A stretch of DNA of 54,262 nucleotides, taken from contig NZ_BAIN01000014.1 of NCBI RefSeq assembly GCF_000613285.1, positions 1 to 54,262 of the forward strand. The letters run 5' to 3'. Position 1 is the first letter of the stretch. Each line of letters starts with the position of its first letter. This DNA is from Acetobacter papayae JCM 25143. Its GTDB lineage: Bacteria; Pseudomonadota; Alphaproteobacteria; Acetobacterales; Acetobacteraceae. Below are positions 15,398 through 35,220 of this stretch, piece after piece. The notes below the pieces were generated by a model, which saw only the letters and a program-made list of their open reading frames with translations, did not search any database and had not been told where the DNA came from. Position numbers and translations under genes: made by a program.

Positions 15398-15426
15398 CCT
15401 GACGCGCAACCGTGGAGTATTCTGAT

Positions 15427-16514
15427 ATGACAGGCAAAGAAAAGTCTTCCATCGTCAAAAAGATTTCCACACAGGCTCTGGCTTTTGCCATGGCGGCCTC
15501 CATCGTCTCCCCCATGGCCACGGCACGGGCTGAGGAGGGAAAACTCACCTATCTGACATGGTCAGGCTATGAACTGCCCGAATATGATGAGGCCTATCTG
15601 AAGGCGCATCCCGGTGCGGTAGATATTTCCGTTTTTGGTGATGATGACGATGCCTTTACCAAACTCAAGGCAGGCTTCCGCCTGATGTCGCGCATCCGTG
15701 CTATGATAAGATCCAGCGCTGGAACAAGGCAGGGCTGATCGAGCCGATCGATACGAGCCGTATTGCCAACTGGAACCAGATTTTCCCCATTTTCCGCAAC
15801 CTGCCCGATATTCAGGCAGGCGATGGCAAAGTGTGGATGGTGCCATGGGACTGGGGCAATACCTCCATCCTGTACCGTACCGACCTGTTGCCAAAAGATG
15901 TAGAGCAGAGCTGGAACCTGTTGTGGGACCAGAAATATGCCGGGCGCATGTCCACGATCGATGCCGTGCATGACACGCCTATCGTTGCGGCTCTGGTTGC
16001 GGGGGTTAATCCGTTCGACCTGAGCCCGGCTGACATGGAAAAAGTGGCTACCAAAATGCGCGAACAGCGCCCGCTCATGGCCTCCTACACCACGGATATG
16101 ACATCGGTTGAGCAGTCTCTGGCCAGTGGTGCGCTGGTTGCGGCCATGACATGGAATGCCTCTGCCGTAGCGCTGCGCAAGCAGGGCGTGCCAGTTGCTT
16201 TCATGAACCCCAAGGAAGGCATGCTGACATGGAGCTGCGGTTTCGTGATGATAAAGGGCACAAAAAACAAGGATCTGGCGTATGATTTCATCAACAGCCG
16301 CCTTGATCCCTCCTCAGGCAAGCACCTGATCGAGAATAATGGCTATGGTGCGTCCACCAGCACGGCGTTTGCTGCGGTTCCGGCAGAAAAACTCAAGGAG
16401 CTTGAACTGCCGTCAGACCCGGAGGTGATGCTCAAGAAGACCGTTTTCACCGGCCCCATGAAACAGGCGGAAGAACTCGGCAAACTACTTGAAAAAATCA
16501 AGGCCGGTGGCTGA
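15427..16514 (+). CDS. polyamine-type periplasmic binding protein (PotD/PotF), frameshifted as read
   Basis: Periplasmic substrate receptor of the importer. A signal peptide (basic start, hydrophobic run, ATARAEEG cleavage region near residue 35) precedes LTYLTWSGYELPEY, the family N-terminus. Later stretches such as WMVPWDWGNTSILYRTD and WSCGFVMIKG are typical of PotD/PotF. One base is missing near 15690 (CGCCTG for CGCCCTG, restoring GFRPDVAHPCYDKIQRW); the repaired length is about 362 aa. ATG 15427 is chosen because GTGGAG at 15412 looks like its ribosome site. Confidence 0.87.
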
Positions 16515-21574: not shown

Positions 21575-24307
21575 TCAGACATCCTGCTTGCGAAGGAGAA
21601 GGCACGCACTGCCGATATACAGGCAGGCAAATCCTACCAAGCTGCATACATGGGTATGAAAAACCGCACCCCCAGCCCCTTGGTAAAGGCCCCAAGGCTG
21701 ATAAGCTGGAACCATGTGGCGGGAAAGGCCTCGCCAAAATAATAGGGTATGCCAACAAGGGTGGATGTGGGGTAAAGCAGGCCGGAAAAATTGACAGCCG
21801 GGATAAGGCAGATAATAGCAGTGCCGAAAATGGCGGCCACCTGTGAGCGCACAAAGGTTGATATCAGCAGGCCAAAGCCGGTGCTGGCCAGAATATAGAA
21901 CAGAGCGCCAAGACTCAGCCTATGAAAGAGCCTTTCAGTGGCACGCCCAGAAGGGTGACGGATAGAAAAACCAGCGCCAGATACGACAGAATGGCCAGCC
22001 CCACATAAGGAAGCTGCTTGCCCAGCAGATACTGCCCCGTACTGGCGGGTGAGGCATACAGGTTCATAATGGAACCGATTTCCTTTTCGCGCACAACGCC
22101 CAGAGCCGTGAGCATGGTGGGAATAAGGATCAGTGCCAGCATGATAACGCCGGGGGTTATGGCGTAAATGCTGCGGAATTCCTGATTATAGGCAAAGCGC
22201 GGCACAATGCTGACAGGCATGGCCGCACTGGCTGTGGGCAGCGGGCTGGTGCGGGCCAGTTCCTGCCCGTAGCGCACCAGTGTGCCCTCGACATAAGCGC
22301 GGATATTGGCACCCAGAAAAGGCATGGCCCCGTCAATGATAATATCAAGCTCAGGCTTTCTGCCCGCGAGCATGTCACGCCCGAAATTGGCGGGAATATC
22401 AATACCCAGTGCAACCTCGCCATGTTGCAGGCGGGTCTGGAGGGTGTGCAGGTCGGGTGTTGGGGTTGTCTGCCTGAAATAGCGCGACCCGCTGAACTGC
22501 TCGGCCAGCGTGCGGCTGATCTGTGACTGATCGTGATCGATCAGGGTGTAGCGGATGGTGTTGATGTCAAAAGACACGCTATAGGCGGCAATCAGCAGCA
22601 GGCTGACCGGCCCGAGAATGGCAAAGGCAAGGCGCAGGCGGTCGCGTAGCAGCTCCACCGTTTCGCGGCGTGCGAAAGCCCAGAGACGTGAAAACCAGCG
22701 CAAAAGCGGTGGCACGGCTTTTGTGGCCTGCGGCGGTGTTTGTTCGGCAGCGGGCGTGCTGGCAACGGCCACGGTGTTTCCGGCCTGTTCCAGACAACGG
22801 ATAAACGCATCTTCCAAAGAGGTAGCCCCAGCCTGCTGGATGATTGCGGCCGGGGCGTCCATGGCCAGAACGCGGCCCTTGTCCATAAGGGAAATGCGGT
22901 CGCAGCGCATGGCCTCGTTCATGAAATGGGTGGAAACGAAAATCGTTACCTTTCCATCACGCGAGAGGCTGACAAGATGTTTCCAGAACATATCGCGCGC
23001 GGCGGGGTCCACGCCGGAGGTGGGTTCGTCCAGTATCAGAATATCGGGGTTGTTGATGCATGCCGCCGCAAGCTGGAGCCTTTGCCTGTAGCCAAGGGGC
23101 AGGCCGGTGGGGCGTTCATCCGCATGGGCGGTAAGCTCGAAATCCTCCAGCATGGTGTTGACACGTTCTGTCGCCTGCGCGGGTGAAAGCTGGAATAGTC
23201 GTGCCTGCAGCACAAGGTTCTGCCGTACACTCAGTTCTTCATACAGCGAGAAAGCCTGCGACATGTAGCCAACCCGCATGCGGGTATTCATATCGCCCGC
23301 GCTGACAGGGCGGCCAAACAGGGTGGCGCTGCCGCTGGTAATGTCGAGCAGGCCTGTGAGCATTTTCATGGTGGTGGATTTGCCGCAGCCGTTCGAGCCG
23401 AGAAAACCGAATATTTCTCCACGCCGGATACGGAAGCTGACATGATCCACCGCCGTAAAGGTGCCGAACTGGCGGGTCAGGTTTTCCGCCTCGATAACGG
23501 GGGGCGTGCCGTCATCCACATAAGGGGGAATTTCAAAACCGCTGACGGCCTGCCGGGCGGCGGCGGGCAGTAGGGAAACATAGGCGGCCTCCACACTTGT
23601 GGTGCCGGTTTTTTGCAAAACGGCCTGTGTTTCATCGCAGGCGAGAATATGCCCGTCATTCATGGCGACCAGCATGAAAAGCGATCCGCCTCATCCATAT
23701 AGGCAGTGGAAACCAGCACGGTCATGCCCGGTCGCTCGCGCCGCATCTGATCCACCAGCGCCCAGAACTGCCTGCGCGAGAGCGGGTCCACGCCGGTTGT
23801 GGGCTCGTCGAGTATCAGCAGGTCTGGCTCATGCACCAGCGCGCAGCATAGGCTGAGTTTCTGCTTCATGCCGCCAGAAAGTTTCCCCGCTGGGCGGTCA
23901 GGAAAGGGGGCAAGCCCGGTGGCGTTCAGCAGGTGGGTAATATGGGTTGCGCGGGTTCTGGCATCGAGGGCGAAAAGACAGCCAAAAAAATCGATGTTTT
24001 CGCGTACTGAAAGCGTGGGATAGAGGTTTTTGCCCAGACCCTGCGGCATAAAGGCCAGACGCGGCAGAAAAGCCTCACGCGCGGCGCGGTTGCCGATATC
24101 AACCCCTAATGTGCTGATCCGCCCGCTCTGGAGCTTGCGCACCCCCGCAATCAGCCCCAGCAGCGTGGATTTACCCACGCCATCCGGCCCGACAAGGGCG
24201 ATGGTCTGCCCCGCCGGAAGGCTGAGCGCAATATCGTGCAGAACGGTCTCACCCCCATAACGGTGAGAAACCCCGCTGACTTCAATCCCGGCTGCGGGTG
24301 CGCTCAT
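21575..24307 (-). CDS. rbbA: RbbA-type ABC fusion (two ATPases plus permease), frameshifted as read
   Basis: One polypeptide with two ABC ATPase domains followed by an ABC-2 permease. ATPase 1: GPDGVGKST, LSGGMKQKLSL, LILDEPTTGVDP. ATPase 2: GSNGCGKST, LPLGYRQRLQLAAA, LILDEPTSGVDP. The permease part contains VREKEIGSIMNLYASP. Three bases are missing: near 23676 (joining MDEADRF to MLVAMNDGHILA), near 21917 (GGCTGAG for GGCCTGAG) and near 21645 (TTGGTAGG for TTGGGTAGG). Repair gives about 911 aa, the size of RbbA/YhiH as I recall it. RbbA has been described as ribosome-associated in E. coli; with HlyD, YhhJ and NodT neighbours, export is the likelier job here. Confidence 0.87.
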
Positions 24308-25294: not shown

Positions 25295-25658
25295 AACGCG
25301 CTCTCGGTAGAGGGGAAAAGAAAGGCCGTGCGGCGGGGGAGATGGGTCATTCTGCGTCTTTCCGGTGTCGTGATGGCGGAACAGCGTAGGCCTTTGCCTG
25401 ACAGGAGTCTGTATCAGGGCCCATAACAGGCGGAGGGGGCGGTTAGCATATTCGTGATACCTATGTCAAAAATATATAACAGACGTTTAAAGCTAATTAA
25501 TATAGTATTGGAAAGTAGTTTTCTGTGTTTTGTTATCGTTATGGTAACCTTTTACTCATGATCTGGATCATTGAGCGAGAAAAATTTTTGACGTAAGTGT
25601 CGAGAAATTAACGCATGCCGCTTACAATCCACAGGAATGTAAGGGCGGGGGAGCGCAT
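25295..25658 (+). promoter_or_regulatory. A+T-rich divergent intergenic region
   Basis: 364 bases between the leftward export operon and the rightward pyruvate oxidoreductase operon. There is no gene. The part from 25440 to 25620 is markedly A+T-rich against its surroundings, as expected for two divergent promoters. A TTGACG at 25588-25593 may be a -35 element for the rightward operon, though the -10 (ACGCAT region near 25611) is weak. The FNR-type palindrome is listed separately. Confidence 0.5.
25558..25571 (+). promoter_or_regulatory. FNR/FixK-type binding site
   Basis: The sequence ATGATCTGGATCAT is a perfect palindrome, ATGAT-N4-ATCAT, matching the core TGAT-N4-ATCA of the FNR/FixK consensus TTGAT-N4-ATCAA. 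Its centre is about 94 bases before the start codon of the Fe-S flavoprotein gene. With the tentative -35 at 25588 it would sit near -60, an activating position for this regulator family. It fits oxygen-limited expression of an operon that encodes an oxygen-sensitive enzyme. Confidence 0.65.
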
Positions 25659-27351
25659 ATGTCGTTGAAACTTCACGATCTTGGCCAGATCATGCAGGAA
25701 ACCACACGGCGTGGCGTTGGTAGCCGCCGCTGGCAGCATCCCGCCTATGTGTCGTTCATGCCGCCGTGCAACAATGCCTGTCCGGCGGGCGAGAACATTC
25801 AGGGCTGGCTGGCGCTGGCCCAGTCAGGCGAATACGAAGCCGCATGGCGACTGCTGACACAGGAAAACCCGCTGCCCGCCACGCATGGCCGCGCGTGCTA
25901 CCACCCGTGCGAGACTGCCTGCAATCGTGGTGAACTCGATGAGCCCGTGGCCGTGCATGCGGTAGAGCGGTTTTTGGGCGATATGGCGGTGGAAAAAGGC
26001 TGGGTGGTGGCGTGCAGCCCGCCTAGTGGCAAAAAAATTCTGGTGGTGGGGGCAGGGCCTGCGGGCATTGCCTGCGCCTATCATCTGGCGCGCAAGGGCC
26101 ATGCGGTGGAAATCCGCGATGCGTCGGAGGAGCCCGGCGGCATGATGGCTCATGGCATTCCCGCATACCGGCTGGCGCGCGAGACCCTGCGGGCGGAGCT
26201 GTCGCGCGTGCTGGCCATGCCGGGGGTAACCCTGCGCAGCAATACCCGCGTGCGCGATGTGGCGCAGGCTATGGCGGAAGGCGGGTTTGATGCGGCTTTT
26301 GTGGCTGTCGGGGCCTCGGTTGCCAATCATCTGGATGTGCCGGTCGAGGATGGGCACAGGCTGCTGAACGCCATTGATCTGTTGCACGATGTCAGTTCGG
26401 GGGCGCGCCCCCTGCTGGGCCGGGTTGTGGCGGTGATTGGTGGTGGCAACGTGCCATGGATGCCGCCCGCACGGCCCGGCGGCTGGGTGCGCGCGAGACG
26501 GTGCTGGTGTTCCGCTATGACGCCGCCCATATGGAAGCCCTGCCAGCAGAAGCGGCGGAAGCCCGCGTGGAAGGCACGAAAATCCGCTGGCTCAGTGTTG
26601 CGGAGCATTTCGGCGCAGATGGGCTGACGGTCGAAAAAGTCGTGATGAACCCGGATGGTTCCGTAACCCCCACGGGTGTTACGGAGCAGGTTGCGGCAGA
26701 TGCCGTCATTATGGCGGTGGGCCAGCATGCGGATCTTTCCCTGTTATCCGCCCTGCCGGATGTGGCGATAGCAAGGACGATACGGTGGTGGTCAACGGGC
26801 ATTTCATGACCGGGCATGCCGGTATTTTCGCTGGAGGAGACTGCATCGGTGGTGCACGCACCATGACAGCGGCCACCGGCCACGGCAAACGCGCAGCCCG
26901 CGAAATTGATGCGTATCTGTATGGTCAGGCATGGGAGCACCCACCCACACCACCGCTGGTGACATTCGATATGCTGCATCTGCCTGATTACATGGATGCC
27001 ACCCGCACCCCGCAGCCCGAACAACCTCTTGCCGCCCGTACGGATTTTAGCGAGGTGGTGGCCGGGTTTGACGCACCACAGGCCCGGCGCGAGGCTGCGC
27101 GCTGCCTGTCCTGTGGAAACTGTTATGAGTGCGACAACTGTTTTGCCGCCTGCCCTGAGCAGGCGATTACGCGCCGGGGGCCGGGGCGGGGGTACGAGGT
27201 ATCGCTTGATCTGTGCTCGGGCTGTGCGGCCTGCGCGGAACAATGCCCGTGCCACGCCATAGACATGGTGGCCGAACCGCAGAACCAGCCTGCGCCTGTG
27301 GGCAGTCTGGGCGAGCCACTGGCTCCTGCACGTTTCAGGGTCAGGGCATGA
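25659..27351 (+). CDS. GltD-like NAD(P)-binding Fe-S flavoprotein with ferredoxin tail, frameshifted as read
   Basis: Flavin oxidoreductase of the glutamate-synthase small-subunit type. It has an N-terminal Cys motif (PPCNNACPAGENIQ, about residue 35, plus CYHPCETACNR), an FAD fold (ILVVGAGPAGIACAYHLA), an NAD(P) fold (AVIGGGNVAMDAARTARRLG, repaired), and a C-terminal two-cluster ferredoxin domain (CLSCGNCYECDNCFAACP and CSGCAACAEQCP). Two bases are missing: near 26450 (GTGCCATGG for GTGGCCATGG) and near 26773 (ATAGCAAGG for ATAGGCAAGG); repair gives about 564 aa. No large glutamate-synthase subunit is present. Its coupling (ATGA) to PFOR suggests electron transfer between NAD(P) and PFOR (inference). 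Confidence 0.83.
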
Positions 27352-30300
27352 TGGGGGGCGGGATGATGAACACCAACACCACACAGGCAGGTTCGCTCCC
27401 TAGTGCGGCTTCCGCTGCTTCGACACCCCCCGGCTCAACGCAGCCCAGTGCCGCCGATAACGCGGCAGCTCCTACCAGTGCTACGGATGCACAGGCCGTA
27501 ACCACCACTATCGACGGCAATACGGCTGTGGCCCATATCGCCTACAGGGTGAACGAGGTCTGCGCGATTTTTCCCATTACCCCGTCTTCTCCCATGGCGG
27601 AACTGGCGGATGTGTGGGCGGCGCAGGGTATTGCCAATCTATGGGGGGCGGTGCCGGTCGTGCAGGAAATGCAGGCCGAAGGCGGGGCTGCGGGCTGCGT
27701 GCATGGGGCGGTGCAGAGCGGCGCGCTGACAACCACCTTCACCGCATCGCAGGGGCTCATGCTTATGATCCCCAACATGTACAAGATCGCGGGGGAGCTC
27801 ACCTCCACCGTCTTTCATGTAGCGGCGCGCGCGCTGGCGGCAGGGGCTTCCTCCATTTTTGGCGATCATCAGGATATCATGGCCGTGCGCCAGACAGGCT
27901 TTGCCCTGCTGGGTGCCTCCAGCGTGCAGGAAGGGCATGACCTTGCCGTTATCGCACAGGCGGCCACCTTGCGCGCCCGTGTGCCTTTTATCCATTTTAC
28001 CGATGGTTTTCGCACATCGCACGAATACAACACGCTCTCTATCCTGCCGGATGCGACAATCCGCGCCATGATCGACGATGAGCTTGTTTATGCCCACCGT
28101 GCCCGCGCTCTCAGCCCGGATCATCCGTTCATTCGGGGGACATGGCAGAACCCCGATACGTATTTCCAAACCCGCGAGGCTGTCAGCCCCTATTACGCCA
28201 AGGCTCCCGCTATTGTGCAGGAGGCCATGGACCGTTTTGCGGGCCTGACCGGGCGGCAGTACAGCCTGTTCCGCTACGATGGCCCGCAGGATGCCGAGCA
28301 TGTTGTGGTGTCCATGGGCTCGGGGGCGGAGGTCGTGCGCGAAACCGCCCTGTGGCTGAACGCGCAGGGCAAGGCGGATCAGCCCCGACTGGGGGCGTTG
28401 CAGGTGCTGCTGTACCGTCCGTTCTCGGCGGAGCATTTTCTGGCGGCCCTGCCCCCCGGTGTAAAGGCCATAGCTGTTCTGGACCGCACCAAGGAGCCGG
28501 GAGCCCCGGCGGAACCGCTGCTGGCCGATGTGCTGAGCGTGCTGGCTGAAGCCGTGGCCGATGGCAGGCTGGAGCGCATGCCGCGCGTGATCGGTGGCCG
28601 GTATGGGCTGTCCTCGCGCGATTTCCACCCCGGTATGGCGCGCGCGGTGTTTGATGAACTGGCCCGCCCCAAACCGCGCAACCACTTTACCGTGGGGCTG
28701 GTGGATGATGTGTCGCATTCCAGCCTCGATTATGATGACACGCTGGATATCGAACCCGCAGGCACGACACGCTGCCTGTTTTTCGGTCTGGGTGCGGATG
28801 GCACGGTGGGGGCCAACAAGAACAGCGTGGAAATTCTGGGCAACCAGCCCGGTCGCTACGCGCAGGCTTATTTTGATTACGACTCCCATAAATCCGGGGC
28901 GGAAACCGCCTCGCATCTGCGGTTTGGCGCGGCCCCTATCCGCGCGCCCTATCTGGTGCGGCATGCTGATTTCGTGGCCTGCCACAAGTTCGAATTCCTG
29001 TTCCGGCGCGATGTGCTGGGGGCTGCGAAGGAAGGCGGTATTTTCCTGCTCAACAGCCCCTACGGCCCCGATGAGGTCTGGGACCGCCTGCCACGCCGCG
29101 TGCAGGAGCAGATCATAACCCGCAGGCTGTCGTTTTACGTGATCGATGCCTCAGCCGTGGCGCAGCGCGTGGGGCTTGGCCCACGGGTCAACACCATTCT
29201 GCAGACCTGCTTTTTCCATCTCTCCAATGTGCTGCCAGCGGATGAGGCCATCCGCCAGATCAAGGCGTTTATCCAGAAATCCTACGGCGACAAGGGCCCG
29301 CGCATTGTCGAGCTGAACAACGCGGCGGTGGATGCCGCAGTGGCTGCACTGCATGCCGTGCCGGTGCCTGCGCAGGCAACCGGCACCGTGGCCATGCCAC
29401 CAGTCGTGCCAGCGGATGCCCCGGCTTTCGTGCGCGAGGTTACGGGCGAGATCATGGCCGGGCGGGGAGATATGATTCCCGTCAGCCGCATGCCGGTTGA
29501 TGGAACATTCCCCGGTGGCACCACGCAGTATGAAAAACGCAATATCGCGCTGGAGGTACCGCTCTGGGACCCCGAAACCTGTATCCAGTGTGGCCAGTGC
29601 AGCATTGTCTGCCCGCATAGCGTTATTCGCGCCAAAACTTATGAGGCCGCCCGGCTTGAAAACGCGCCGGGCAGTTTCAAGTCAGCCCCGGTCAATGCAC
29701 GAGGCTACCCTGATTCCCTGTTTACCCTGCAATTCTATGTGGAAGACTGCACGGGTTGTGGGGTGTGTGTGGAAAACTGCCCCGCTATTGCACAGGATGG
29801 GCAGACCCGTGCCATCAATATGGGTGAAAAACTGCCTATCTTGCAAACAGAACGCGAAAACATCCAGTTTTTTGAAACCATTCCTCAGATGGATCGCCGC
29901 CGGGTCAATGCGGCCAATGTGCGCGGCGTGCAGTTTCTTGAACCTCTGTTCGAGTTCAGCGGGGCCTGCGGCGGTTGTGGCGAGGCACCCTATCTCAAGC
30001 TGATTTCGCAGCTTTTTGGCGATCGGCTGCAAATTGCCAATGCCACGGGGTGCTCCTCCATTTTCGCCGGCAATACTCCCGCCCACCCGTGGAAAGCTAA
30101 TGCGCAGGGGCGTGGGGTAGCGTGGTCCAACTCCTTGTTTGAGGATAATGCCGAGTTCGGTCTGGGCTTTCGCCTTGCCATAGACCAGCAGACCGAACTG
30201 GCGCATGCGCTCTCACGTAAACTGTCTGACAGAATAGGTCAGGATCTGGTTTCTGCCCTGCTGGATGCGCCACAGCGCACGGAATCCGAGTTCGATCTCC

Positions 30301-31076
30301 AGCGCGCCCGCGTGGCGGCCCTGAAGGAAAAACTGGCAGGCTCCACCGATGCCGAGGCTAAAATGCTGCTTAGTGTAGCGGATTGTTTCGTCAAGCGCTC
30401 CGTCTGGATCGTGGGGGGAGATGGCTGGGCGTATGATATTGACTATGGCGGGCTTGATCATGTTCTGGCGCAGGGGCGCAATGTCAATGTGCTGGTGCTG
30501 GATACGGAGGTGTATTCCAACACCGGCGGGCAGTCCTCCAAGGCGACACCCATAGGAGCATCCGCCAAGTTTGCGGCGGCGGGCAAAAAGGTGCCGCGCA
30601 AGGACTTGGCCATGCAGGCCATTGCCTATGGCTATGTTTATGTCGCGCAGATTGCCATGGGGGCCAATGCCGAGCAGGCGCTGATCGCCCTGCGCGAGGC
30701 CGAGGCCTATGATGGGCCTTCCATCGTGCTGGCGTATTCGCAGTGCATCGCTCATGGGATCGATATGCGCACGGGCATGAAGCAGGCGGCCCGTGCGGTG
30801 GCCTCTGGCTACTGGCCGCTCTTCCGTTTTGACCCGACCATGCGGCGTGCGGGGCTCAACCCCTTCCGGCTGGATTCCACCCGCCCGCGTATTTCGCTGG
30901 AAGACTATGCCTACCGCGAACTGCGCTACAAGACACTGGAGCGCACAAACCCCGAAAACGCCGCCCATCTCATGCACCAGGCGCAGGCCGCGGCCGATGA
31001 ACGCTACCGCATGTATGAGGATCTGGCCGCGCGCGATGGCAGCCGCTTCCTGCCCCATTGGGAGGACGTGACATGA
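27348..31076 (+). CDS. nifJ: pyruvate:ferredoxin (flavodoxin) oxidoreductase
   Basis: Homodimeric PFOR that converts pyruvate and CoA to acetyl-CoA, CO2 and low-potential electrons. It is a single 1242-aa chain and unbroken over 3.7 kb. Order: a roughly 55-residue Ala/Ser/Thr/Pro-rich leader, the pyrimidine domain (FPITPSSPMAELADVW), mid domains, an inserted two-cluster ferredoxin domain (CIQCGQCSIVCP near 744 and CTGCGVCVENCP near 800), the proximal cluster Cys (ACGGCGEAPY near 873, NATGCSSI), and the thiamine diphosphate site (GDGWAYDIDYGG near 1024, DTEVYSNTGGQ). ATG 27348 overlaps the upstream stop; ATG 27363, preceded by GGGGGGCGGG, is an alternative start. The low-complexity leader is unusual. 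Confidence 0.94.
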   Translation: MMGGGMMNTNTTQAGSLPSAASAASTPPGSTQPSAADNAAAPTSATDAQAVTTTIDGNTAVAHIAYRVNEVCAIFPITPSSPMAELADVWAAQGIANLWGAVPVVQEMQAEGGAAGCVHGAVQSGALTTTFTASQGLMLMIPNMYKIAGELTSTVFHVAARALAAGASSIFGDHQDIMAVRQTGFALLGASSVQEGHDLAVIAQAATLRARVPFIHFTDGFRTSHEYNTLSILPDATIRAMIDDELVYAHRARALSPDHPFIRGTWQNPDTYFQTREAVSPYYAKAPAIVQEAMDRFAGLTGRQYSLFRYDGPQDAEHVVVSMGSGAEVVRETALWLNAQGKADQPRLGALQVLLYRPFSAEHFLAALPPGVKAIAVLDRTKEPGAPAEPLLADVLSVLAEAVADGRLERMPRVIGGRYGLSSRDFHPGMARAVFDELARPKPRNHFTVGLVDDVSHSSLDYDDTLDIEPAGTTRCLFFGLGADGTVGANKNSVEILGNQPGRYAQAYFDYDSHKSGAETASHLRFGAAPIRAPYLVRHADFVACHKFEFLFRRDVLGAAKEGGIFLLNSPYGPDEVWDRLPRRVQEQIITRRLSFYVIDASAVAQRVGLGPRVNTILQTCFFHLSNVLPADEAIRQIKAFIQKSYGDKGPRIVELNNAAVDAAVAALHAVPVPAQATGTVAMPPVVPADAPAFVREVTGEIMAGRGDMIPVSRMPVDGTFPGGTTQYEKRNIALEVPLWDPETCIQCGQCSIVCPHSVIRAKTYEAARLENAPGSFKSAPVNARGYPDSLFTLQFYVEDCTGCGVCVENCPAIAQDGQTRAINMGEKLPILQTERENIQFFETIPQMDRRRVNAANVRGVQFLEPLFEFSGACGGCGEAPYLKLISQLFGDRLQIANATGCSSIFAGNTPAHPWKANAQGRGVAWSNSLFEDNAEFGLGFRLAIDQQTELAHALSRKLSDRIGQDLVSALLDAPQRTESEFDLQRARVAALKEKLAGSTDAEAKMLLSVADCFVKRSVWIVGGDGWAYDIDYGGLDHVLAQGRNVNVLVLDTEVYSNTGGQSSKATPIGASAKFAAAGKKVPRKDLAMQAIAYGYVYVAQIAMGANAEQALIALREAEAYDGPSIVLAYSQCIAHGIDMRTGMKQAARAVASGYWPLFRFDPTMRRAGLNPFRLDSTRPRISLEDYAYRELRYKTLERTNPENAAHLMHQAQAAADERYRMYEDLAARDGSRFLPHWEDVT

Positions 31077-32104
31077 AAGGGGATGCGGGTATGAGCCTTG
31101 CAACAGCCTATCTGGGCCTGACACTGTCTCATCCGGTGGTTGCGGCGGCCTCGCCACTTAGCGCGTCGGTAGAGGGTATTGTGCGTCTGGCGGATGCCGG
31201 GGCGGCGGCCGTGGTTATGGCCTCGGTTTATGAGGAGCAGATTGCAGCACAGGAACTGGCCGAGGCCGCCTTGTGGTCTGCCGGGCAGGAAAGCCATGCC
31301 GAAATGGGGGCGTATTTTGCCCCGCAGGCGCAAGCCCGCGTGCTGGATGGCAGGCTTAATACCCTGCGCCGGGCGGCGGAGCGGGCGGGGGTGCCTGTTA
31401 TTGCCAGCCTGAACGGCTGCACGGATGAAGGCTGGCTGGATTTTGCCCGCCAGATGGAACAGGCCGGGGCAAGTGCTATCGAGTTGAATTTCTCGCATAT
31501 TGCCACTGACATTACCCAGAGTGCCCATGCAGTCGAAGCCGAGTATGCTGATGTGGTGCGCCGGGTCTGTGCGGGGGTGGGTATTCCGGTTTCGGTCAAA
31601 CTGCCCTCGACTTTTACCGCGCCGGGCCATGTGGTACGCTCTCTACTGGATAATGGCGCGGCCGGGGTGGTGCTGTTCAGCCGGTTTTATGGGCCGGGGC
31701 TGGATATTGCGGTCATGGAGCCGGATGAACGCCTGTGCCTGAGCACCCCGGCAGAACTGAACCTGACGCTGATGTGGCTGTCCCTCCTTTCCGCCCGGCT
31801 GGGTGGCAGTTTTGCTGCAGGCTGCGGTGTATGGAGCGCCGCAGATGTGGTGCGCTGCCTGCTGGCGGGGGCCAGTGTGGTGACAACGGCCTCGGCCCTG
31901 CTGGAGCGGGGGCCGGGGCATATCGGCACGCTGGTGGCAGGCCTGCGGGCGTGGATGCACGCACAGGGCCATACCAGCCTTGCGGATTTTCAGGGCCGAT
32001 GCGCCGCGCGCGGCACGCCAGAGCAGGCTCGCGCGTTTGTGCGGCGCGAATACTACCGGCTGATGACGCTACCCGTGGAGCGCATGACCGTAACGGGCGC
32101 ATAA
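31073..32104 (+). CDS. dihydroorotate dehydrogenase-like protein
   Basis: FMN-type TIM-barrel protein of the class often encoded beside pyruvate:ferredoxin oxidoreductase. It has 343 aa from ATG 31073 (ATGA overlap); an internal ATG at 31091 is an alternative. Seen: LGLTLSHPVVAAASPLS, IASLNGCTDEGWLDF, ASAIELNFS, VSVKLPSTF and the phosphate-binding end region GCGVWSAADVVRCLLAGASV. The catalytic-residue context differs from PyrD, and no pyrimidine genes are near, so orotate synthesis is unlikely. Its true reaction is unknown; a redox partner or reductase role in the PFOR operon is plausible. Confidence 0.8.
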   Translation: MKGDAGMSLATAYLGLTLSHPVVAAASPLSASVEGIVRLADAGAAAVVMASVYEEQIAAQELAEAALWSAGQESHAEMGAYFAPQAQARVLDGRLNTLRRAAERAGVPVIASLNGCTDEGWLDFARQMEQAGASAIELNFSHIATDITQSAHAVEAEYADVVRRVCAGVGIPVSVKLPSTFTAPGHVVRSLLDNGAAGVVLFSRFYGPGLDIAVMEPDERLCLSTPAELNLTLMWLSLLSARLGGSFAAGCGVWSAADVVRCLLAGASVVTTASALLERGPGHIGTLVAGLRAWMHAQGHTSLADFQGRCAARGTPEQARAFVRREYYRLMTLPVERMTVTGA

Positions 32105-32116
32105 GGGAAAGGGAGC

Positions 32117-33118
32117 ATGATGGGGGTGGATATGCCGCGTGTCTCGTCAGTAAGCGAGGCCATGGAAATCGGTTCCGCCAGAGAGCAGAACCAGCATGCG
32201 CTGTTTGCCGACCTTGTGCGCAAGGCGTCCAAACTGGGGCCTGTGCCTTATGCGGCGGTCTGGCCGTGCGAGCAGCACGCCCTGCAAGGTGTGGTGGATG
32301 CGGCCGCGCGCGGCATACTTACCCCCGTTCTGGTGGGTGATGGCGCGGCCATGGCGGCCCTCGCGCGGGAAAGCGGGCTGGATATCAGCGGGTTGAAGCT
32401 GGTGGAAGCCTGCTCCCCGGCGGCGGCGGTGGAGCAGGCCGTAGCCCTTGTCCATACGGGTGAGGTGCACGGGCTGATAAAAGGCAGCCTGCATACGGAT
32501 ATTCTCATGCACGGGGTGGTTGGCCCCCAGAGCGGGCTGCGGACAGAGCGCCGTATGAGCCATATCTTTCTGATAGCTGCCCCCTCTTATGACGGGCTGC
32601 TGTTCGTGACCGATGCCGCCATCAATATCGTGCCTGATCTCGAGACCAAGCGCGATATTGTCCAGAATGCCATAGACCTGCATCTGGGCCTTGGTCTGGG
32701 CGCACCGCGCGTGGCGATCCTCTCGGCGGTCGAGACGGTCAACCCGAAAATACAGGGCACGCTGGATGCCGCCTGCCTGTGCAAGATGGCGGAGCGGGGG
32801 CAGATTACCGGCGGCGTGCTGGACGGGCCACTGGCCATGGATAACGCTGTGGATGGCGAGGCCGCGCGGATCAAGGGTATTGTCTCTCCTGTTGCGGGGC
32901 GGGCACAGATTCTGGTCACGCCTGATTTGGAAGCAGGCAACATGCTGGCCAAGAACCTTATTTTCATGGCGGGGGCGGAATCCGCCGGTATTGTCATGGG
33001 GGCAAAAGTGCCTGTACTGCTCACCAGCCGGGCGGATAGTGTGCAGGCGCGGCTGGCTTCTGCTGCTGTGGGTGCGTTGTATGCGCGTTACCTCAGAACA
33101 CGGCCTGCCTGTGGCTGA
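32117..33118 (+). CDS. pta: phosphate acetyltransferase (Pta/Ptb superfamily)
   Basis: Converts acetyl-CoA and phosphate to acetyl phosphate and CoA. The 333-aa short form has ARGILTPVLVGDGAAMAALA, GLIKGSLHTDILMHGVVG, FVTDAAINIVPDLETKRDIV, and GVLDGPLAMDNAV near the C-terminus, a motif set shared by phosphate acetyl- and butyryltransferases. The position between PFOR and acetate kinase favours acetyl-CoA as substrate. Ribosome site AGGGAAAGGGAG lies just before ATG 32117. Confidence 0.85.
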   Translation: MMGVDMPRVSSVSEAMEIGSAREQNQHALFADLVRKASKLGPVPYAAVWPCEQHALQGVVDAAARGILTPVLVGDGAAMAALARESGLDISGLKLVEACSPAAAVEQAVALVHTGEVHGLIKGSLHTDILMHGVVGPQSGLRTERRMSHIFLIAAPSYDGLLFVTDAAINIVPDLETKRDIVQNAIDLHLGLGLGAPRVAILSAVETVNPKIQGTLDAACLCKMAERGQITGGVLDGPLAMDNAVDGEAARIKGIVSPVAGRAQILVTPDLEAGNMLAKNLIFMAGAESAGIVMGAKVPVLLTSRADSVQARLASAAVGALYARYLRTRPACG

Positions 33119-33159
33119 TGTTGCGCGGTGCATATGGTTTTTTCTGAAAGACAGAGCGT

Positions 33160-34377
33160 ATGGCTGGTGTAATCCTTGTTTTCAATGTGGGTTCTTCCAG
33201 CGTCAAGTTTACGGTGTTCGATGTTGGGGCCGGGATTACGGCACAGGACGCGCCAACCCGGCTGGTGCATGGCGAGATTGAAAACCATGCTGATGGGTTC
33301 AGTTTTCACGTAAACGACCGCACAGGCACGCGCTGTGTGGATGAGCGGATTACCACCACAGACCCCCACCCGCTCGATCATCTGCTGAAATGGCTTTCCG
33401 CCCATGCGGAGGGGCGCAGCCTGCTGGGTGTTGGCCACCGGATTGTCCATGGCGGGCCGGAATTTTCCGCTCCTGTGCGTATTACGCCCGATGTGCTTGA
33501 CCAGCTTGAGGCACTGACCCCGTTTGCACCGTTGCACCAGCCCGCAACTCTGGCCCCTGCACGGGCCATTGCTGACTACAGGCCCGACCTGCTTCAGGTT
33601 GCCTGTTTTGATACGGCATTCCATCAGACCATACCCGAAATGGCGCGCCTGCTGCCGCTGCCCCGCCGCTATGCGCAAAAAGGCGTGCAACGCTACGGTT
33701 TTCACGGGCTCTCCTATACATGGATCGCGGAACGCCTGAAACTGTGCGACCCAGCCCTGTATGCAGGCCGCACGCTGATAGCCCATCTGGGCAGCGGTGC
33801 CAGTCTATGCGCGTTAAAAGGCGGGAAAAGCCTTGAAACAACCATGGGGTTTTCAGCGCTGGATGGTTTGATGATGGGCACGCGCACAGGCATGATAGAC
33901 CCCGGTGCGCTGCTTTACATGATGCAGGAGGAAGGTGCAGGCTGGTGCACGCTGGTGGATGTGCTTTACCGCCAGTCCGGCCTGTTGGGGGTTTCGGGCG
34001 TTTCGTCCGACATGCGGCTGCTGCGCCAGAGGCTAGTGGAGGAAAAAGACCCCGAAATCAGCAAGGCTGTCGCGCAGGCGCTAGATTTGTTCGAATACCG
34101 GATTATTGAAGAAACCGGCGCGCTGGCGGCTGTTATGGAAGGGCTGGATGGTCTGGTGTTTACAGCCGGGATTGGTGAGCATGACAGCGTCCTGCGAGCT
34201 AATGTTTGTGCAAGGCTGGGCTGGCTGGGTGTAAAGCTGGATGCCAAGGCCAATGCCTGCCATGCCAGTGTTATCAGCACCCCGGACAGTGCCGTGAGGG
34301 TGCGGGTTGAACCCACGGATGAGGAAGCCGTTATCATGCGTGATGTTCTAGCGTTTATCACGCAGGCTGCGGCGTAA
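33160..34377 (+). CDS. ackA: acetate kinase
   Basis: Transfers phosphate from acetyl phosphate to ADP, giving ATP and acetate. The 405-aa protein has the N-terminal phosphate-1 motif FNVGSSSVKFTVF, GVGHRIVHGG, the catalytic Asp in ACFDTAFHQTIPEMA, RYGFHGLSYTWIA, AHLGSGASLCA, TGMIDPG and FTAGIGEHDSVLRANV. It closes the fermentation operon 41 bases after pta. SSSVK replaces the more usual SSSLK/SSIK. No defect is visible. Confidence 0.95.
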   Translation: MAGVILVFNVGSSSVKFTVFDVGAGITAQDAPTRLVHGEIENHADGFSFHVNDRTGTRCVDERITTTDPHPLDHLLKWLSAHAEGRSLLGVGHRIVHGGPEFSAPVRITPDVLDQLEALTPFAPLHQPATLAPARAIADYRPDLLQVACFDTAFHQTIPEMARLLPLPRRYAQKGVQRYGFHGLSYTWIAERLKLCDPALYAGRTLIAHLGSGASLCALKGGKSLETTMGFSALDGLMMGTRTGMIDPGALLYMMQEEGAGWCTLVDVLYRQSGLLGVSGVSSDMRLLRQRLVEEKDPEISKAVAQALDLFEYRIIEETGALAAVMEGLDGLVFTAGIGEHDSVLRANVCARLGWLGVKLDAKANACHASVISTPDSAVRVRVEPTDEEAVIMRDVLAFITQAAA

Positions 34378-34520: not shown

Positions 34521-35220
34521 TTATGGCACGGTATCAACCAGCACCACTTCCGTATCCTCAAGAGCGAGAACAGACAGCACATCCGTTTTGGAAATGGCGG
34601 CACCGTCACGCTCGTTCAGGGTTTTGCCTTCGATTTCGACAGACCCCTTAGCCACGACCAGATAGCCCAGCCTGTCAGCACCAAGGTTATAGCTGGTGGT
34701 TTCGCCCTTTTTCAGCGTAGCCCCCAGCACGCGGGCATCGGTATTGATGGGGAGCGCGTCATCTGCATCTGGCTGGCCAGATGCCAGAACGACAAACTGC
34801 CCGGCCCGGTCGCCCCGTGGGAAAGCCCGAGTGCCCCATGAGGGCGCATGGCCTGCCCGGTCAGGCAGAATCCAGATCTGGAACAGGCGGGTTGTTTCGT
34901 CTTCCAGATTGTATTCGCTGTGGCGGATTCCCGTACCTGCCGACATGACCTGCACATCACCCGCGCCGGTGCGCCCCCGGTTGCCTAGGCTATCCTCATG
35001 CGTAATGGCCCCTTCACGCACATAGGTAATAATTTCCATGTTGTCGTGCGGTGGGTGCCAAAGCCCGTGCCGGGGGCAATGGCATCATCATTCCATACGC
35101 GCAGCGCGCCCCAGTGCATCCGTGCGGGGTCGTAGTAACTGGCGAAGGAAAAATGGTGGCGGGCATCAAGCCAGCATGATTGGCGTGGCCGAGTTTATCA
35201 AAGGGCCTGACTTCAATCAT
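34521..35220 (-). CDS. pirin family protein, frameshifted as read
   Basis: Two-domain cupin of the pirin family; some members have quercetinase activity and others bind metal in redox responses. From ATG 35220 it reads MIEVRPFDKLGHANHG, then after repair WLDARHHFSFASYYDP, GALRVWNDDAIAPGTGFG and HDNMEIITYVREGAITHED. Two bases are missing: near 35180 (CATGCTGG for CATGGCTGG) and near 35052 (CACCGCAC for CACCCGCAC). Repair gives about 233 aa, normal for pirin. It is divergent from a LysR gene, a common pairing. Confidence 0.87.

Follow-up and report, generated by a model that had tools for sequence, protein, structure and literature searches.

A pyruvate:ferredoxin oxidoreductase operon behind an FNR-type box in Acetobacter papayae and Acetobacter peroxydans

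The window analysed here is a stretch of 54,262 nucleotides from Acetobacter papayae JCM 25143 (contig C164 of the genome G000, a 3.04-Mb draft in 177 contigs, 87% complete). Between positions 25659 and 34377 it carries five genes on one strand, coding for a Fe-S flavoprotein (gene 1), pyruvate:ferredoxin oxidoreductase (PFOR, gene 2), a dihydroorotate dehydrogenase (DHOD)-like flavoprotein (gene 3), a phosphate acyltransferase (gene 4) and the acetate kinase AckA (gene 5). We read them as a PFOR operon of acetic acid bacteria that would be raised by an FNR-type regulator at low oxygen in the lineage of Acetobacter peroxydans, with gene 1 as the outlet of the PFOR electrons to NAD(P)+; judged from sequence, the case for this reading as a whole is about evenly balanced. 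Acetic acid bacteria were already known to carry this operon, and the pathway from pyruvate to acetate is right in outline. The most interesting part of the locus is the pair formed by gene 1 and the DHOD-like gene.

Organization of the operon and state of gene 1

The five genes lie head to tail and are tightly packed, genes 1/2 and 2/3 overlapping by ATGA and the later junctions leaving 12 nt (genes 3/4) and 41 nt (genes 4/5) (Table 1). A terminator scan from the last stop at 34377 to position 34700 returned no site. The first-pass annotation of this DNA had described a palindrome followed by five coupled genes; the box, the common strand and the tight packing stand, but gene 1 is not one open frame in this assembly. 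The other four genes are open frames. The window is largely collinear from 10.7 to 36.3 kb with one contig of the sister species A. peroxydans, and the four open genes are 84-93% identical to their counterparts there, the PFOR being 93% identical to that of A. peroxydans NBRC 13755.

Table 1 Features of the PFOR operon in the window
Feature	Position	Strand	Basis and remarks
FNR-type box ATGATCTGGATCAT	25558..25571	.	87 nt before the ATG at 25659
Conserved block 3' of the box, probable core promoter	25585..25608	+	alignment with A. peroxydans
Gene 1, PRK12771-type NAD(P)/FAD/Fe-S oxidoreductase, C-terminal 2[4Fe-4S] domain	25659..27351	+	three frames here; intact in A. peroxydans (L002:6280-7971)
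Gene 2, pyruvate:ferredoxin oxidoreductase (nifJ/PFOR)	27348..31076	+	TIGR02176 profile match; PFORs in the PDB
Gene 3, DHOD-like flavoprotein, PRK07565 subfamily	31073..32104	+	profile and predicted fold; alternative start 31091
Gene 4, Ptb-like phosphate acyltransferase, PRK11890/PRK08190 subfamilies (annotated Pta)	32117..33118	+	profile match; nearest PDB relative
Gene 5, acetate kinase AckA	33160..34377	+	profile match

Profile matches bore out the gene families first assigned, with gene 4 being Ptb-like rather than a Pta of the TIGR00651 type. The PFOR scored 1686 bits against the TIGR02176 cut-off of 911 (single-chain type), over positions 2-1166 of the 1167 of the profile. Since this match begins at residue 53 of the protein, the true start may lie further downstream than 27348. 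In Desulfovibrio africanus PFOR, a C-terminal extension after about residue 1170 protects against oxygen. No such extension was seen in the window PFOR, whose residue 1230 of 1242 is the last one aligned and faces residue 1169-1170 of 1231-1232 in the D. africanus chain; the alignment stops where the extension begins, and the known oxygen shield is thus missing here. The acyltransferase reached the PRK11890 cut-off (437 versus 413 bits) and stayed below that of the TIGR00651 pta equivalog (55.6 versus 311 bits), and its nearest relative in the PDB is a phosphate butyryltransferase. AckA exceeded the cut-offs of TIGR00016 (334 versus 293 bits) and PF00871 (334 versus 22 bits) and is the sole PF00871 match both in the 87% complete draft and in A. 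peroxydans.

By family, the PFOR would oxidise pyruvate to acetyl-CoA and CO2, and the Ptb-like acyltransferase and AckA would then convert acetyl-CoA to acetate with the gain of one ATP, so that the enzymology first proposed holds in outline. Anaerobes ferment pyruvate to acetate by PFOR, Pta and AckA with one ATP per pyruvate. The window operon would carry out the same three reactions with the same yield, but its host is an aerobe that has pyruvate dehydrogenase besides, its acyltransferase is Ptb-like, and gene 1 probably serves as the NAD(P) outlet in place of a hydrogenase or Rnf. Pyruvate dehydrogenase E1 was over cut-off in 5/5 genomes searched, which rules out PFOR as the sole source of acetyl-CoA; as this enzyme is also present, we regard the operon as an auxiliary route.

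The PRK12771 profile matches three successive window frames (about 25659-26455, 26456-26772 and 26773-27351), each of them below the cut-off of 516 bits (349, 84 and 192 bits). Relative to A. peroxydans, in which gene 1 is intact (564 aa, 661 bits) with Fer4_20, FAD/NAD(P) and 4Fe-4S dicluster domains, it is split by two single-base deletions. These two shifts, together with shifts at other places in 2/14 other copies of the genus, could point to decay of the operon in the present strain, with gene 1 a pseudogene and the pathway broken or rerouted. We consider such decay quite unlikely. Among the 77 A. peroxydans open reading frames (ORFs) kept for comparison, 20 have a window orthologue at 70% identity and coverage, and three of these are shifted by single bases in the window, gene 1 among them; 2/19 shifted ORFs besides gene 1 is what a noisy draft would be expected to give, and the four other genes of the operon are open and well conserved. 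Because single-base shifts hit two other compared orthologues too, an assembly or sequencing error appears likelier than true decay, though it is not proven. Gene 1 is open at 12/14 other Acetobacter loci that reach its start, and the shifts of the remaining two (L150 and L154) differ in position from those of the window. The two other shifted window genes are an ABC transporter ATPase/permease gene (21603-24307, minus strand) and another ORF (15412-16511).

The promoter box and its candidate regulator

No exact ATGAT-N4-ATCAT other than the box upstream of gene 1 occurs in the window, and A. peroxydans carries ATGATTTAGATCAT at an equal distance from gene 1, the changes in the box being confined to the spacer. 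Class II FNR sites are centred near -41.5 from the transcription start; a start of this class would fall near 25606. A palindrome W-TGAT-N4-ATCA-W arose in about 0.2% of 20,000 Markov-model draws of the 232-nt intergenic region, and a looser test on the best FNR-like site in 450 nt gave p = 0.020. Over the whole window, ATGAT-N4-ATCAT with at most one mismatch was found five times versus 1.31 expected, a count reached in 2/100 shuffles; the stricter FNR consensus TTGAT-N4-ATCAA with at most two mismatches was not enriched (19 versus 15.2 expected, 20/100 shuffles). We rejected box enrichment, in the window or in the genome, as proof of FNR control because it is too weak, and relied instead on the presence of the box in A. 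peroxydans and on gene context.

In the genome, 15 of the 16 sites of the W-TGAT-N4-ATCA-W pattern were read. Four touch no ORF of at least 100 aa and 11 overlap one; the pattern read backwards has no genome site. Of the four ORF-free sites, one lies between the fnr and OmpW-like genes and the others precede a pntA-like ORF, a formate dehydrogenase-N gene and the operon; one of the 11 overlapping sites, in the interval between a LysR and a PotD-like gene, was counted as intergenic too. The A. peroxydans genome has 12 sites, and has one at four of those five places; the strict pattern did not pick up a pntA site in it. At the fnr/OmpW, formate dehydrogenase-N and LysR/PotD genes both genomes carry TTGAT-type boxes, and some of these box-bearing genes are FNR-controlled in other bacteria. 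As the operon box recurs in A. peroxydans and TTGAT-type boxes stand at shared genes in both genomes, FNR control of the operon in this lineage appears likely.

A regulator of the FNR or FixK type, which oxygen control as first proposed would need in the genome, was found. The search for PF00325 (Crp-type helix-turn-helix), which left out PF13545-type regulators, gave a single gene, G000:C115. FNR-type regulators are marked by four cluster cysteines and an E-xx-SR recognition helix. The G000:C115 protein shows these marks, with an N-terminal C-x2-C-x7-C (the third cysteine spaced by x7, not x5), a further cysteine aligned with one in 9qlt, a solved 'FNR type regulator', and a helix-turn-helix that contains ETVSR; it stays below the NCBIfam cut-offs for FnrL (146/300 bits), FixK (124/300) and Fnr (81/228). 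Such a Fe-S regulator could bind the box and raise transcription of the operon when oxygen is scarce in the A. peroxydans lineage. The available part of PMC9429829 describes GoxR of Gluconobacter oxydans, a host called obligatorily aerobic there, as a Fe-S regulator of the FNR type that controls genes of respiration and redox metabolism; GoxR and G000:C115 are alike by type. If FNR control is real, a part of the acetic acid bacteria would keep an oxygen-triggered route to ATP at the substrate level, which would bear on how they live through oxygen shortage in insect guts, fruit, cocoa and vinegar.

The operon in other acetic acid bacteria

PFOR had been called unexpected in an acetic acid bacterium, a view that the genome samples and published proteomics (PMC10742644, in its available part) contradict. 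In a sample of 49 Acetobacter genomes, the present one included, 14 have a PFOR over cut-off, at 16 loci, and among 200 genomes drawn from the Acetobacteraceae 39 do so (a match of any kind occurs in 105, and those below cut-off are mostly weak and partial). By these counts, PFOR is a regular, patchy feature of acetic acid bacteria. The first-pass annotation had also suggested a search for the five-gene order in relatives. All five genes stand in order at 12 of the 15 genus loci examined besides the window, A. peroxydans among them; of the other three, two run into contig ends, and in A. senegalensis the 4 kb that follow pta contain no visible ackA. The acyltransferase match of L150 spans residues 120-331 only. 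Outside the genus, six Gluconacetobacter loci have the acyltransferase with no ackA found nearby, and at two Asaia loci neither the DHOD-like gene nor ackA was found nearby. Two assemblies, A. pomorum LHT 2458 (L003, L011) and A. cerevisiae LMG 1625 (L008, L013), hold two diverged five-gene clusters each. PFOR also occurs in Dysgonomonas, according to the available text of PMC12913781.

A FastTree tree was built from 75 chosen PFORs. In it, the window PFOR groups with those of A. peroxydans, Asaia and the relative G192 (starred, 100), and the other Acetobacter PFORs form a separate group of 13 rows (starred, 99); the joining of these two groups and Gluconacetobacter is left unsettled (93). The tree does not support a recent import of the PFOR from anaerobes, and replacement within the family is possible. 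A record labelled Mycobacterium interjectum ATCC 51457T (L022) has a cluster of gene 1, PFOR and the DHOD-like gene, with a PFOR 77% identical to that of the window which adjoins the acetic acid bacteria in the tree; this may reflect a transfer, or a mislabelled or contaminated record.

The promoters differ between groups. A perfect TTGAT-N4-ATCAA stands at -146 in G192. At three Asaia-type loci the site reads TTGAT-N4-CTCAA and lies near -150 to -157, and TTGAC-N4-GTCAA occurs at -194 to -215 in six Gluconacetobacter loci. Within Acetobacter, L150 carries TTGACCTAAATCAA near -170. ATAAT-type sites are seen near -169 to -166 in L147, L149 and L155, and one of CTAAT type at -218 in L154; the sites of L147, L149, L155 and L154 are not better than shuffles at p = 0.2, and no FNR-like box was found in the upstream region of L152. 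Conserved palindromes of another kind thus stand upstream of gene 1 at L147, L149, L150, L154 and L155, and at L005, L006, L009, L010, L021 and L025, namely TGACG-N4-CGTCA in several Acetobacter and the TTGAC-N4-GTCAA of Gluconacetobacter.

Several observations weigh against FNR control of the operon and against our reading of the locus as a whole. Seven A. pasteurianus-type loci (L141-L146 and L148) keep the operon with no common box, L146 alone among them having GTGAT-N4-ATCAA at -406. The operon box departs from TTGAT at both outer positions, when the other conserved intergenic boxes are TTGAT-type. The W-TGAT-N4-ATCA-W pattern is only mildly enriched in the genome, its 16 sites comparing with about 10 from the window Markov model. 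The operon promoters of the two genomes are identical at 170/231 aligned positions (74%), and at this identity the ten half-site bases would be kept by chance in about 5% of cases, so that their conservation is suggestive, not decisive. Gene 1 is broken in the window assembly as well as in 2/14 other copies of the genus. Finally, in the available part of PMC10742644, the PFOR, Pta and AckA of A. pasteurianus were quantified in flasks shaken at 170 rpm, and the lag-phase values at 6% acetic acid were lowered to 0.37-0.42 for PFOR and AckA but raised to 1.78 for Pta.

The box could be a FNR site that does not work, a housekeeping or other promoter driving the operon. The outer bases off consensus, the number of such patterns expected by chance in 3 Mb, the overlap of 11/15 sites read with an ORF and the different conserved palindromes in other Acetobacter promoters are consistent with this, and a promoter identity of 74% throughout lowers our confidence in our reading of the locus as a whole and raises that in a non-working box. 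The equal distance of the box from gene 1 in A. peroxydans, its rarity in simulated intergenic regions and its membership of a small intergenic set at genes shared by both genomes, some of them under FNR elsewhere, argue the other way, and we hold a non-working box to be somewhat unlikely.

The A. pasteurianus data also bear on the direction of the pathway. In the available part of PMC10742644, PFOR, Pta and AckA are annotated, were detected as proteins and are numbered as near neighbours (fig_HN.783,.784,.786 and.787). The A. pasteurianus cluster (loci L004/L143), whose identity with this numbering is inferred, has the five genes in the order of the window; it differs from the window in having no clear FNR box upstream, and its PFOR is 79% identical. 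The presence of the proteins under shaking weighs against a strictly low-oxygen module, at least in A. pasteurianus, and with the promoters of this group it leaves the earlier terms 'self-contained' and 'low-oxygen' unproven. The same source reports PFOR up 1.89 and 2.32 at 3% acetic acid in exponential phase and Pta raised in each of the four comparisons, and it names AckA/Pta among the routes of acetate assimilation; its main text contains 0 instances of the word oxygen. In the literature searched, mostly without subscription journals, we found no account of oxygen control of this cluster and saw the cluster in Acetobacter only in the available part of PMC10742644.

Acetic acid bacteria live in acetate, and the operon could therefore serve acetic acid resistance as an assimilation module, with AckA and the acyltransferase running towards acetyl-CoA and PFOR acting as a pyruvate synthase or simply supplying acetyl-CoA. 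Besides the acetate-rich habitat, the listing of AckA/Pta as such a route, the raised Pta, the rise of PFOR at 3% and the A. pasteurianus operons that lack a common FNR-like box speak for assimilation. Against it, PFOR and AckA fall in lag phase when acetic acid is at 6%, making pyruvate takes electrons of strongly reducing potential and Rnf was not found over cut-off, and the FNR-type box of the A. peroxydans lineage points to oxygen and not to acetate. We consider assimilation unlikely.

Probable electron route and the gene 1/DHOD-like pair

The low-potential electrons first ascribed to this pathway would probably not go to a ferredoxin sink. Matches to Rnf were all below cut-off in the five genomes searched, and narG was not found in the present genome or in A. 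peroxydans. Both of these genomes have a [NiFe] hydrogenase (G000:C94, L166; A. peroxydans contig C4 at ~9.4-19.5 kb, L161), and a match to PF00374 ([NiFe] hydrogenase) is absent from three other PFOR-bearing Acetobacter genomes. A Tat-type small subunit together with a b-type cytochrome is the mark of an uptake hydrogenase; the A. peroxydans set has a Tat-type small subunit and an adjoining b-type cytochrome gene, and so looks like the uptake type. The A. peroxydans hydrogenase locus also holds a second, sensor-like subunit pair with a histidine kinase upstream. With Rnf below cut-off and the hydrogenase of uptake type, we set aside a ferredoxin sink as unlikely in a search that did not cover nitrogenase and FeFe hydrogenase.

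As gene 1 has its own 2[4Fe-4S] domain, no Rnf is over cut-off and the hydrogenase is of uptake type, NAD(P)+ is the likeliest outlet. Going by its domains, the gene 1 protein would take the PFOR electrons onto its 2[4Fe-4S] domain and pass them via FAD to NAD(P)+, and the NAD(P)H formed would be reoxidised by the respiratory chain; PFOR electrons thus probably reach NAD(P)+ through gene 1, then respiration. The solved relatives of gene 1 include chains of formate dehydrogenase, Nfn and dihydropyrimidine dehydrogenase (DPD). Pyruvate:NADP+ oxidoreductase (PNO) is a Fe-S flavoprotein coupling ferredoxin-level electrons to NAD(P). NfnAB is likewise a Fe-S flavoprotein linking such electrons to NAD(P), and Nfn subunits rank with the solved structures nearest to gene 1. 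Gene 1 differs from NfnAB and PNO in carrying a fused 2[4Fe-4S] domain.

The DHOD-like FMN protein, by fold and linkage, would probably be a further electron-transfer partner of gene 1. It scored below the class 1 dihydroorotate dehydrogenase cut-offs (61/269 and 60.5/270 bits). In class 1 DHOD the loop N-x-S-C-P-N holds the catalytic cysteine; this loop is missing in gene 3 and, among 43 homologues found, in the 42 whose match covers it. The predicted fold of gene 3 is closest to the FMN domain of DPD, and genes 1 and 3 jointly hold all the domains of that enzyme: Fer4_20, FAD/NAD(P) and 2[4Fe-4S] in gene 1, and the FMN-domain fold in gene 3. DPD and bacterial PreT/PreA are thus among the nearest known counterparts of the pair, which is here split around PFOR. 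In DPD the catalytic cysteine loop has the motif ELNxSCPN, whereas gene 3 reads ELNFSHIATD; with this loop missing, no pyrimidine substrate is expected. We tentatively propose, as a rather improbable but specific reading, that the products of genes 1 and 3 are the two parts of a DPD-like FAD/Fe-S/FMN enzyme which has lost its pyrimidine chemistry, a dedicated PFOR partner that would accept pyruvate electrons at a fused ferredoxin domain and deliver them to NAD(P)+ and to an unnamed acceptor on the FMN side. Such a pair, if true, would free aerobes that use PFOR from the need for free ferredoxin, Rnf or hydrogenase.

In several phyla PFOR has gene 1 and the DHOD-like gene as neighbours, and the identity of the substrate of these two would reveal what aerobes do with the electrons from PFOR. 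We surveyed the neighbourhoods of the 80 most similar of 178 PFOR loci in named genomes, many loci being cut at one side. Among these best 80 of 178, the trio of gene 1, PFOR and the DHOD-like gene is adjacent in 28, occurring in Acetobacteraceae, Burkholderiales, Actinomycetes and others; eight have the trio plus pta and ack, and 12 more have PFOR with the DHOD-like gene, gene 1 not being seen.

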